Positions 3,798-22,484 of a stretch of DNA of 47,059 bases are shown here, piece after piece (position 1 is the first letter of the stretch; every line of letters starts with the position of its first letter). The notes beneath the pieces were generated by a model. It ran no database searches and was not told the DNA's origin. It saw only the letters and a program-made list of their open reading frames with translations. The stretch is from assembly GCA_017392525.1 (NCBI GenBank), contig JAFOVD010000004.1, positions 1-47,059 on the forward strand, in the 5' to 3' direction. This DNA is from Lachnospiraceae bacterium (lineage in GTDB: Bacteria > Bacillota > Clostridia > Lachnospirales > Lachnospiraceae). Position numbers and translations under genes: made by a program.

Positions 3798-3826
3798 GTT
3801 ATAACACCAGAATTAGCACTCGTCAA
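3798..3826 (-). promoter_or_regulatory. clpB promoter
   Basis: TTGACG (3826-3821) and TATAAC (3803-3798) are spaced by exactly 17 bases on the minus strand. The -35 box overlaps the CIRCE element, so HrcA binding would block RNA polymerase. Confidence 0.85.
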
Positions 3827-3839
3827 TAGAGAGTGCTAA
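3813..3839. promoter_or_regulatory. CIRCE operator (HrcA binding site)
   Basis: TTAGCACTC (3813-3821), nine bases, then GAGTGCTAA (3831-3839) matches the canonical CIRCE inverted repeat at all 18 positions. CIRCE is the known site of the heat-shock repressor HrcA. Confidence 0.97.
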
Positions 3840-18790: not shown

Positions 18791-20239
18791 TCAATTTCCA
18801 TCGCTTTTTGTTTTTGATTCCACTTCCAACTTCTTTTGGTTTTGATTCCATTTCCACAACATCACTAGGAAGATTGCGCCACGCATCATCAAATCAATGC
18901 ACATGGCAATCCACACACCCTTCAGTCCGATTCTAACAGCCAAAAATGCGGCAATCGGTATACGAATCAACCACATGGTGCAGAGATTCACAAGACTTGG
19001 TTTCAACGTATTACCGGTTCCTCTAAACACGCCACCTGCAACAATTGCTGCACCGAATAGCGGTTCGGCAAGGGCTTCTATTCTTAAACAGGCCACACCT
19101 AACTGCTGCACCTCTTTTACCGGAGTCAAAATCTGCATCATCCATGGCGCAAGGGCATATAACAAAATTCCTGTACCTGCCATAACAAGTATTCCCAAAC
19201 CAACTACAAGACAGCCAAACCTGCCGGCAAGCCGCTTTCTGTTTGCTCCGACACTCTGCCCCACCAGTGTTGTGCCGGCAACAGAGATTCCAAATCCAGG
19301 CATATAACAGAAACTCTCTGCTGTAATGGCAAACGAATTTGCTGACAATGCAACTGCCCCCAGGGGAGAAACTATTCTGGTAATCATCACCTGAGCAGAC
19401 CCAAGAATAATCTCCTCAATTGCTACCGGGTAGGCAATCTTAATCGCCTTTTTCAAGTGCTTCACATAAGAGCCACCTGATATCAACCGATCGGAGGCAC
19501 GATACTTTAACTTATCCACACGTTTGTAGATAATATAGAGCATAGCCAACGTTCCCACCGTTTCCGCACACATAGTACCCAGAGATGCACCCACAACGTC
19601 AAGATTTGCACCATACATCTGAAATCTATATCCGAAAAATGTTACCGTCCTGGTTGGGAAAATCAGAATATAGTTAAATAAAACATCTAATCCGCAGATA
19701 ACAATACTGATTACGGAACTTAGTTTCACCATTCCGCTGGATTGCAGCATTCCAGAACTGAGGAATTCTGTCATCAGAATCGGTAAAGCCACTATATAGA
19801 CAAAGAGGTAACGAGAGGCATCTCTTGCAATATCTTCTGTTCCACCAAGCCAATAAGGCAGATGACGATAGATCAATAGTCCAAGTAGCAAAATCAAACC
19901 TGAAAAAAGAAGACCGGTAATGAATCCATGCTTCATAATTCTTCTGGCCTCACGGTCCTCTTCCGCTCCAATTTTATGTGCCACCTGCACTTGAAATCCA
20001 ATAGCCAGTGCAGATAATACTCCCCCTGTCAGCCATAGTGTCGTCGACATCAATCCAATGGCCGCAGATTTATATGTTCCCAGCTGTCCTACCATGGCAG
20101 CATCAATGTATTGCATCACTACCGATGTCAACTGTGCCAAGATAGCAGGAAAAGCCAGAGACAGCACAAGCTGTATCTGGCTATTTAAAGGCATTTCCTC
20201 TCCTTTTCTCACTTTTTCCAGTAATACCTGTTCATTCAT
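18791..20239 (-). CDS. MATE-family efflux transporter
   Basis: This 482-residue membrane protein has about twelve helices and the duplicated MATE architecture. Typical blocks are YIDAAMVGQLG near residue 45 and AGTTLVGQSVGANR in the second half. MATE proteins export cationic or amphiphilic compounds with Na+ or H+ entry. The start codon overlaps the stop of the MalY-type gene by one base (TAATG), so both are coupled. It is the last gene of the DUF3737 operon, which has a CIRCE-like promoter site. The exported compound is unknown. Confidence 0.93.
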   Translation of the reverse strand: MNEQVLLEKVRKGEEMPLNSQIQLVLSLAFPAILAQLTSVVMQYIDAAMVGQLGTYKSAAIGLMSTTLWLTGGVLSALAIGFQVQVAHKIGAEEDREARRIMKHGFITGLLFSGLILLLGLLIYRHLPYWLGGTEDIARDASRYLFVYIVALPILMTEFLSSGMLQSSGMVKLSSVISIVICGLDVLFNYILIFPTRTVTFFGYRFQMYGANLDVVGASLGTMCAETVGTLAMLYIIYKRVDKLKYRASDRLISGGSYVKHLKKAIKIAYPVAIEEIILGSAQVMITRIVSPLGAVALSANSFAITAESFCYMPGFGISVAGTTLVGQSVGANRKRLAGRFGCLVVGLGILVMAGTGILLYALAPWMMQILTPVKEVQQLGVACLRIEALAEPLFGAAIVAGGVFRGTGNTLKPSLVNLCTMWLIRIPIAAFLAVRIGLKGVWIAMCIDLMMRGAIFLVMLWKWNQNQKKLEVESKTKSDGN

Positions 20240-21420
20240 TAATGATTCACTTTCTCCTGATATTTTCGTATACCATCCTTCAGGCGATTCATCCCATCAA
20301 CGACATTGCAACGGGCTGTCGCAATATTAATTCTCAAGAATTTATTTCCATTTCCACCATAGACATCACCGCCGGTAACCCAAAGTCCCGTCTCTTTTCG
20401 AATAAACTTTGCAAGCTCGCGTCCGTCCTCTGCAACCTTCGATATATCCACCCACAGAAGATAAGTTGCATTCGCCGGAATTAAATGCACCTCCGGAATA
20501 TTTTCTCTAAGGTACGCCGAAACAAACTGGCGGTTTTCATATAGATATTCACGCAACTGTTCTACCCAGTCCCATCCATTTTGAAAAGCACTTATAGCAG
20601 CCTGATATGCAAATGCATTACCCTCTGCCACTTCATCCGTATTCAATCCGCGCCATACCTTGTGATGAATAAATCGATTTTCCGCATACACCGCAGATGT
20701 CTGAATTCCGGCAATATTAAAGGTTTTGCTCGGCGAAAGACAGGTCACAGAATTCATTCTCGCATGCTCCGACACACTTGCAAATGGAGTATAGGATTCT
20801 CCGGGATTAACCAGGTCACAATGCAATTCATCGGAAATAACTACTACACCATTCTCCCATGCCAGTTCACCAATCTTGAAAAGGTCCTCTTCCTCCCAGA
20901 TATGCCCAATAGGGTTATGGGGATTGCATAATATCATAAGGGTAGTCTGCGGATCTTCCATCTTTCTCTTAAGGTCAGAAAAATCCACATGGTAAGTACC
21001 ATTTTCATATATCATAGGGCTCTCCAGTACTTTTCGCCCATTATTTAAAATAGAATTATAAAAAATATTATAGACCGGTGTCATAAGAAGAACATTTTCT
21101 GCCACGTTGGTAAGGCTTCGAACCATACTGGAAATAGCAGGCACCGCACCGGTTGCAAATATCAATCGTGTCTTCTTCATCTGGAAATCATGATGATTCT
21201 TCCACCAGTTTACATATGCTTCAGCCCATTCCTCCGGCTCAATTGTATAGCCATAAGTCTTGTGAGAAGCTCTATTTTGAATAGCCTCTGAAACCTCCGG
21301 AAAGGTTTCAAAATCCATATCTGCCACCCACATTGGGAGTTCCCCCGGCTTAATATCCCACTTTAAGGAATCTACATATTTCTCCGTTCTGTCTACCTTT
21401 TTATCAAAATCATACTTCAT
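20239..21420 (-). CDS. MalY/PatB-family PLP-dependent C-S lyase/aminotransferase
   Basis: This 393-residue fold-type I PLP enzyme is close to MalY/PatB cystathionine beta-lyases. The N-terminus (DRTEKYVDSLKWD, ELPMWVADMDF) is characteristic. The PLP-binding lysine is in SPSKTFNIAG, the NPHNP motif is at about residue 170 (CNPHNPIG), and RINIA near the end carries the carboxylate-binding Arg. It probably cleaves cystathionine or other cysteine conjugates. It is coupled by one-base overlaps to DUF3737 upstream (TGATG) and MATE downstream. Confidence 0.92.
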   Translation of the reverse strand: MKYDFDKKVDRTEKYVDSLKWDIKPGELPMWVADMDFETFPEVSEAIQNRASHKTYGYTIEPEEWAEAYVNWWKNHHDFQMKKTRLIFATGAVPAISSMVRSLTNVAENVLLMTPVYNIFYNSILNNGRKVLESPMIYENGTYHVDFSDLKRKMEDPQTTLMILCNPHNPIGHIWEEEDLFKIGELAWENGVVVISDELHCDLVNPGESYTPFASVSEHARMNSVTCLSPSKTFNIAGIQTSAVYAENRFIHHKVWRGLNTDEVAEGNAFAYQAAISAFQNGWDWVEQLREYLYENRQFVSAYLRENIPEVHLIPANATYLLWVDISKVAEDGRELAKFIRKETGLWVTGGDVYGGNGNKFLRINIATARCNVVDGMNRLKDGIRKYQEKVNH

Positions 21421-22319
21421 CAGCTATGGTATTCCTCCTCAGAAAAGTCAGCATAATCAATTGTTCTACCAATATTATCGCAAATAATCTCTGTTTTTTC
21501 AGGATTAATTTTATCTTTTTCAAGCATAACGGTTCCTATCTCATCCGCGCGAATCACACCGCTTCCCGGATTCAAAACAGAGTCTAATTTGCCGACAATT
21601 TCAGCATCAATATTCTCACAGAATTCAAACGCAAGTACTGTATTCATCAACTTACAATTTACAAGTTTAAGATTTTCAATATAACAAAATCCCTGAAGGC
21701 TCTCGATTGTACAATTAACCAGCGTCAGATTTTTTGCATTCCATCCCAAATACTCACCGGAAATCGTCGAATCATACACAGTAACATTCTCTGTATTCCA
21801 GAATGCGTCCTTCATCAGAAGTCTGGAGTTATGTATCTCTACATTTTTCGCTCCGTCAAATCCATAGTTGCCAATGATAGTCACATTGTTTAACTTCATA
21901 TTTTCAGAATTCATGGCGATATAATGTCCGTTAATATCGACATTCTCCAATTCTACATCCTTACAGTTCCACAGTGTTTCTTCCGCATTTGGAAATGATA
22001 CGTTGCGAAGCTTCACTCCATGGCACTTTCTAAAATTCTTTGGTGCCACAACAGTTGTATCTTCTACGGTGATATTGTCTGTGTACCAGATTCCGGCACG
22101 TCCCATTTCAAAGATTGTCGAATCTTTCAATACAATATCCTTCGCATACCAAAGTGGGTATTTCCACTTGAACTCCACATGTTCTAATGTAATATCTCTC
22201 GATTCCTTAAGCGGCGATTCTCCGTCCTTAAAAATTGAATTTTTAACAAGCAGATTCTGTCCTCGAAACAGGGCTCTCTCCCCTGTCAAAACCTGTTGAT
22301 CTACTATTTTTTTATTCAT
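21420..22319 (-). CDS. DUF3737 beta-helix protein
   Basis: This 299-residue protein of the DUF3737 family has no signal peptide. It is built of about ten short repeats of the form N-[hydrophobic]-x-[DN]-[ST], e.g. KDIVLKDSTIF, DNITVEDTTVV, KDVELENVDIN, ENLKLVNCKL. That pattern predicts a right-handed parallel beta-helix. I know of no established biochemical role. The ATG at 22319 is chosen because GGAGG lies about ten bases upstream; the earlier ATG at 22337 has none. It leads the operon with MalY and MATE; in my recollection this association recurs in Clostridia. Confidence 0.88.
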   Translation of the reverse strand: MNKKIVDQQVLTGERALFRGQNLLVKNSIFKDGESPLKESRDITLEHVEFKWKYPLWYAKDIVLKDSTIFEMGRAGIWYTDNITVEDTTVVAPKNFRKCHGVKLRNVSFPNAEETLWNCKDVELENVDINGHYIAMNSENMKLNNVTIIGNYGFDGAKNVEIHNSRLLMKDAFWNTENVTVYDSTISGEYLGWNAKNLTLVNCTIESLQGFCYIENLKLVNCKLMNTVLAFEFCENIDAEIVGKLDSVLNPGSGVIRADEIGTVMLEKDKINPEKTEIICDNIGRTIDYADFSEEEYHS

Positions 22320-22343
22320 ATGAATCCAGTCCTCCATCTATAA

Positions 22344-22379
22344 ATTATACAATTAGCACTCTCTGCTTTTAATTGCTAA
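22344..22379 (-). promoter_or_regulatory. CIRCE-like operator and promoter of the DUF3737 operon
   Basis: TTAGCACTC (22353-22361), exactly nine bases, then AATTGCTAA (22371-22379) matches the CIRCE consensus at 16 of 18 positions, with the left arm perfect. A perfect TATAAT (22349-22344) lies three bases beyond it on the minus strand, and a weak -35 (TTAAAA) falls inside the element. Binding of HrcA here would block the promoter. Confidence 0.65.
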
Positions 22380-22452
22380 ATTAATTTTGCGCAATTTAAT
22401 GCAGATATACTATACCACTCCTTCGTACCTTCATCAAATAAAGATTCTATAA

Positions 22453-22484
22453 ACAAAAGGGCAGGTGCCGAAGCACCTACCCTT
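22453..22484 (-). terminator. Terminator of the opp operon
   Basis: A stem of 11 pairs with one internal mismatch (22457-22468 with 22473-22484) has a CGAA-type tetraloop and ends in TTTTGTTT on the minus strand. Confidence 0.85.

Follow-up and report, generated by a model that had tools for sequence, protein, structure and literature searches.

HrcA regulons consist mostly of chaperones and proteases, and the class I operator of the CIRCE/HrcA system reads TTAGCACTC-N9-GAGTGCTAA. In the general model, as given in the available part of a study of L. plantarum, HrcA activity is lost when GroESL is busy (PMC3842655). Imperfect operators have been described: the groESL operon of Streptococcus thermophilus, which is over-expressed at 50 °C, carries a CIRCE of the form TTAGCAGTT-N9-GAGTGCTAA (PMC3192767), while the accessible text of another report states a limit of two mutations for CIRCE and describes its gradual loss in Spiroplasma (PMC5138195). 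The same two-mutation limit elsewhere gave five sites, four at genes called chaperones and one at a dnaJ-like pseudogene, and the CIRCE promoters there are described as behaving like many heat-induced promoters lacking a CIRCE (PMC4245973). In the table rows available for an hrcA mutant of L. plantarum, genes that encode no chaperone and have weaker predicted sites changed by about -1.4 to 1.5 fold, those for catalase and transaldolase and the sorbitol genes being examples of little change; dnaK was called unaltered, and differential expression was reported for an integrase and for a gene whose function is unknown, the tabulated fold changes of both being small (PMC3842655). Such small changes in non-chaperone genes count against an expansion of the HrcA regulon.

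The window analysed here, a 47,059-nucleotide stretch, derives from a Lachnospiraceae genome (65 contigs, 2.0 Mb, 78.6% complete) that encodes HrcA (G000:C19). An earlier note on this DNA had described a CIRCE-like site with a perfect left arm, a right arm matching at 7 of 9 bases and a nine-base spacer ahead of a DUF3737–MalY–MATE operon, and the same site was found here: the forward strand at 22353–22379 reads TTAGCACTC-N9-AATTGCTAA, with 9/9 matches in the left arm, 7/9 in the right arm and 16/18 in total (Table 1). On the operon strand, both mismatches lie in the first arm, at positions 7 and 9, and the other arm is perfect. The element is therefore within the CIRCE limit of two or fewer mismatches with a nine-base spacer, a number of mismatches that appears tolerable given the S. 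thermophilus groESL site and the two-mutation limit, as these are described in the accessible text of both reports (PMC3192767, PMC5138195). Its location is that of a promoter or 5′ leader operator, 33 bp ahead of the corrected DUF3737 start, 3′ of the promoter-like sequence P1 and over a second one, P2.

At a threshold of three mismatches, the whole window holds just two sites, the DUF3737 element and the perfect clpB CIRCE that the earlier note had offered for comparison, and 100 shuffles of the window gave a mean of 0.02 sites. A dinucleotide-Markov simulation of 584 Mb, matched to the window's dinucleotide composition, yielded 10 sites having at most two mismatches, which corresponds to a chance expectation of 8e-4 sites in a window and 0.034 in a 2.0-Mb genome and agrees with the earlier judgement that a 16/18 match at the right spacing is improbable by chance. 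The element is very probably derived from a CIRCE.

The C-S lyase and exporter assignments made previously stand, as the PatB-family C-S lyase and the MATE protein both exceed their NCBIfam cut-offs (Table 1). The DUF3737 protein had no match to NCBIfam models and no relative among PDB sequences, and the name DUF3737 was absent from the literature searched. Of the 45 DUF3737 loci whose DUF3737 protein is at least 46% identical, 37 carry a MalY gene no more than 700 bp downstream, against 0 of the 12 more divergent loci (one of these 12 ends at a contig edge, and most loci include only about 1.5 kb of downstream sequence), which suggests that DUF3737 and the MalY-type lyase form a functional pair. 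The DUF3737–PatB/MalY pair is common in Lachnospiraceae, and the MATE exporter comes next in the window's operon.

Table 1. Features of the DUF3737 operon, its leader and the clpB comparison site (window coordinates)
Feature	Position	Strand	Details
MATE-family exporter gene	18791..20239	-	NCBIfam TIGR00797, 210 bits (cut-off 147.4)
PatB/MalY-type C-S lyase gene	20239..21420	-	NCBIfam TIGR04350, 370.6 bits (cut-off 340)
DUF3737 protein gene	21420..22319	-	Corrected start, 299 aa
Ribosome-binding site GGAGGA	22330..22335	-	Read directly; DUF3737 start shared with AC2012
P2 promoter-like sequence	22344..22372	-	TTAAAA-N17-TATAAT; overlapped by CIRCE-like element; consensus scan
CIRCE-like element	22353..22379	-	Operon orientation TTAGCAATT-N9-GAGTGCTAA, 16/18; 27 bp
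Leader motif AATTGCGCAAAATT	22383..22396	-	Between P1 and CIRCE-like element; similar in AC2012, L038 and L039
P1 promoter-like sequence	22409..22437	-	TTGATG-N17-TATAGT; TG one base ahead of -10; consensus scan
Terminator-like hairpin	22457..22484	-	Parts DUF3737 operon from oligopeptide-transporter genes upstream
Perfect CIRCE of clpB (comparison)	3813..3839	-	TTGACG -35-like hexamer within spacer and right arm

The consensus scan that returned P1 and P2 gave a third match in the terminator region, and shuffled sequences averaged 1.1 matches. The -10 of P1 is TGNTATAGT in all four sequences compared (the window, its relative AC2012, and the loci L038 and L039), and TTG-N20-TATAGT is also present in AC2012, L038 and L039 with the TTG equally spaced in each. 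No counterpart of the P2 -10 was seen in the AC2012 leader. This pattern of conservation indicates that P1 is probably the main promoter of the operon, which would place the element in the 5′ leader, 29 bp beyond the P1 -10; the hrcA and groES CIRCEs of the same genome also appear, by eye, to lie 3′ of their likely promoters. The earlier note had placed the site between a TATAAT box and its -35, and this needs correction: the element covers the -35-like TTAAAA (22372–22367) and ends 3 bp before the TATAAT (22349–22344). Position 22319 is a more likely DUF3737 start than the mechanical ORF start at 22337, because the ATG of the latter overlaps the GGAGGA and the equivalent upstream ATG of AC2012 runs into a stop.

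The leader motif is near-palindromic, and its counterparts are AATTGCGTTAAATT in L039/G180, AATTGTGTTAAATT in L038 and GATTGCATAAAATC in AC2012, the last with both outer bases altered symmetrically. With at most one mismatch allowed, AATTGCGYWAAATT occurred 18 times across three genomes and a reversed control 7 times, and the DUF3737 promoter accounts for the only two exact matches. This motif may serve as the operator of a further, older regulator that acts on the DUF3737 operon.

Pattern searches of the window's genome identified four perfect CIRCEs, ahead of hrcA, groES, htpG and clpB (the last assigned by Pfam), and five sites with up to three mismatches, comprising these four and the DUF3737 element, versus one for the reversed pattern. 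Across 41 genomes including this one, 146 sites with at most two mismatches (perfect sites included) were obtained, versus 2 for the reversed pattern. The other genomes contain at least 24 imperfect CIRCEs, and 21 of these were examined: 18 one-mismatch sites and three sites in L090 and L091, leaving outside this set one listed site in G073 and two in G067. All 21 precede HrcA, GroES, ClpB, Hsp20, HtpG/Hsp90 or Lon genes and none has a non-stress target, in keeping with regulons made up mostly of chaperones and proteases, with the genes named by N-terminal sequence or, for L110, L114, L118, L121 and L124, by Pfam. A member of the same genus, G002, has a 16/18 CIRCE ahead of clpB. Imperfect sites are thus normal on true targets, and the HrcA interpretation proposed earlier gains from the presence of an HrcA gene and perfect CIRCEs in this genome and from the imperfect sites that do precede heat-shock genes.

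In 11 of the 18 one-mismatch sites the change is the same, GAGTGCTAA to CAGTGCTAA, so that the operator contains a perfect TTGACA -35. These sites (L109–L111, L113–L116, L118, L119, L122 and L123) are clpB, hsp20 or groES CIRCEs of several Lachnospiraceae. AC2012 has a perfect CIRCE ahead of hsp20 (L059, G003:C2:150279); an hsp20 CIRCE was not found in the window's genome, which is 78.6% complete.

Among the relatives found, Lachnospiraceae bacterium AC2012 (L037, identical at this locus to G003) is the nearest: its DUF3737 protein is 90% identical and its gene order, DUF3737–MalY–MATE–AI-2E transporter, is the same. At the equivalent place, AC2012 carries TTAGCACTC-N8-GAGTGGCTAA, which ungapped matches at 14/18 positions and, with four mismatches, is beyond the two-mismatch limit; all 18 bases are present if one spacer base was lost and one base was inserted in the right arm. 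MAFFT misaligns the repeat owing to length differences between the leaders, and the repeats were aligned by eye on TTAGCA. A gap-tolerant score reached 15 for the AC2012 leader and 14 for the window's leader, compared with a maximum of 13.5 among 400,000 random leaders; as the two species are not independent, the AC2012 score counts against chance there and not for selection. The altered copy at the same place makes it probable that the DUF3737-operon site is real. Furthermore, each species retains the arm that is altered in the other, from which we infer that their common ancestor probably carried a full CIRCE.

The four core CIRCEs shared by the two species have perfect arms in both, whereas the DUF3737 site is damaged in both. 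At fourfold-degenerate sites of DUF3737, 30/97 positions agree between the species, while 20/27 aligned bases agree in the leader beside the element and the core-site spacers agree at 7 to 8 of 9 positions. Leaders therefore appear to change at a lower rate than fourfold sites, and an argument from saturation (P = 5e-7 with gaps, 0.0019 without) was dropped as support for the element because of the conserved core spacers and leader flank.

The breadth of conservation was assessed with 57 distinct DUF3737 loci, which are part of those existing; 55 of these had a readable upstream region (one search found DUF3737 matches in 156/397 genomes and returned 30 loci). A score of 14 or more was seen for the window's species and AC2012 only. 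The scan of related DUF3737 promoters suggested by the earlier note thus recovered an altered copy in AC2012, while 53/55 upstream regions score below 14 of 18, the best of them 13. In G001, of the same genus, a CIRCE-like site is absent upstream of DUF3737, while G002 has 48 nt to the contig end and fell outside this comparison. L038 and L039/L061 (L061/G180 is identical in sequence to L039), with DUF3737 proteins 73% identical, lack the repeat although they share P1 and the AATTG motif.

Overall, we consider it reasonably likely, with a probability of roughly 60%, that the site is a real but weak, lineage-specific HrcA operator, as judged from sequence comparison. Against this reading stand the damage to both copies beside perfect core CIRCEs, the scores below 14 in 53/55 upstream regions, the single match of the reversed pattern in this genome at three mismatches and the restriction of the 21 imperfect CIRCEs examined to stress genes. 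The alternative that deserves most attention, although we regard it as unlikely, is a decaying relic: an ancestral full CIRCE in which one arm was damaged in each lineage and useful HrcA control of the operon was lost. Damage to a different arm in each species while the core CIRCE arms stayed intact in both is what such decay would leave, the AC2012 copy is past the two-mutation limit given in the same accessible text that describes gradual CIRCE loss in Spiroplasma (PMC5138195), and the element was not seen outside the species pair among the 55 readable upstream regions. However, the low agreement at fourfold sites means that an unselected site should be gone, yet the window copy still matches at 16/18 with the exact spacing, an argument that is weakened by the fairly conserved adjacent leader (20/27).

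Decay apart, we judge it improbable that the palindrome arose by accident or serves some other repressor whose operator has the same outer TTAGCA...TGCTAA. The per-genome chance expectation leaves some room for accident, and the AATTGCGYWAAATT motif that adjoins the element and recurs in L039/G180 and, in changed form, in L038 and AC2012 would fit another regulator, but AC2012 holds all nine consensus bases, including positions 7 and 9, in the very arm that is altered here. Lower still stands an RNA element, in which a leader hairpin rather than a DNA operator would alter mRNA stability or ribosome access. The AC2012 repeat does fold as a one-bulge hairpin (-8.2 kcal/mol, z -2.33), the site would be within the leader if P1 is used, and the centroid structure of the window's 27-mer alone pairs five outer repeat bases. 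In contrast, the minimum-energy fold of that 27-mer is a different, weak hairpin (-3.5, z -0.62) and the whole window leader prefers other pairings (z -1.28); on these folding results, an RNA hairpin was ranked low as the main explanation and we consider it very improbable.

If the site is a weak HrcA operator, HrcA kept active by GroESL would be bound to the element in the leader of the DUF3737–PatB/MalY–MATE operon in unstressed cells, where it would obstruct polymerase arriving from P1 and mask the -35 of P2. Heat or another stress that engages GroESL would then release HrcA and lead to partial induction of the operon alongside the hrcA operon, groESL, htpG and clpB. In this scheme, we infer that HrcA binds and represses, that the operon responds to heat, that P1 and P2 are used and that the cell may benefit. 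As for its origin, the chances seem about evenly balanced that HrcA in a small group of Lachnospiraceae recruited a chaperone-free operon, with a full CIRCE in the ancestor and tuned-down versions in the living species. Protein-folding stress would thereby be linked to C-S lyase chemistry and to export. A real operator here would also represent an unusual expansion of an HrcA regulon to an uncharacterised protein, a C-S lyase and an exporter, and would provide a first condition for studying DUF3737.

Compared with the CIRCE/HrcA class I operator, the DUF3737 element has the same arms, the nine-base spacer, a promoter or leader position and HrcA encoded in the genome, but differs in having two arm mismatches, in being seen in one species pair and in preceding an operon with no chaperone or protease. 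In the same genus, CIRCEs ahead of clpB and hsp20 (L004, L056 and L059) overlap a -35-like hexamer, as read by eye, in the way that the element overlaps P2, but no counterpart of P2 was seen in AC2012 and the shared P1 would place the element in the leader. The S. thermophilus groESL CIRCE controls a core chaperonin operon, unlike the DUF3737 element, but as given in the available part of that report its first arm is mismatched at the same positions, 7 and 9, and its other arm is likewise perfect (PMC3192767).
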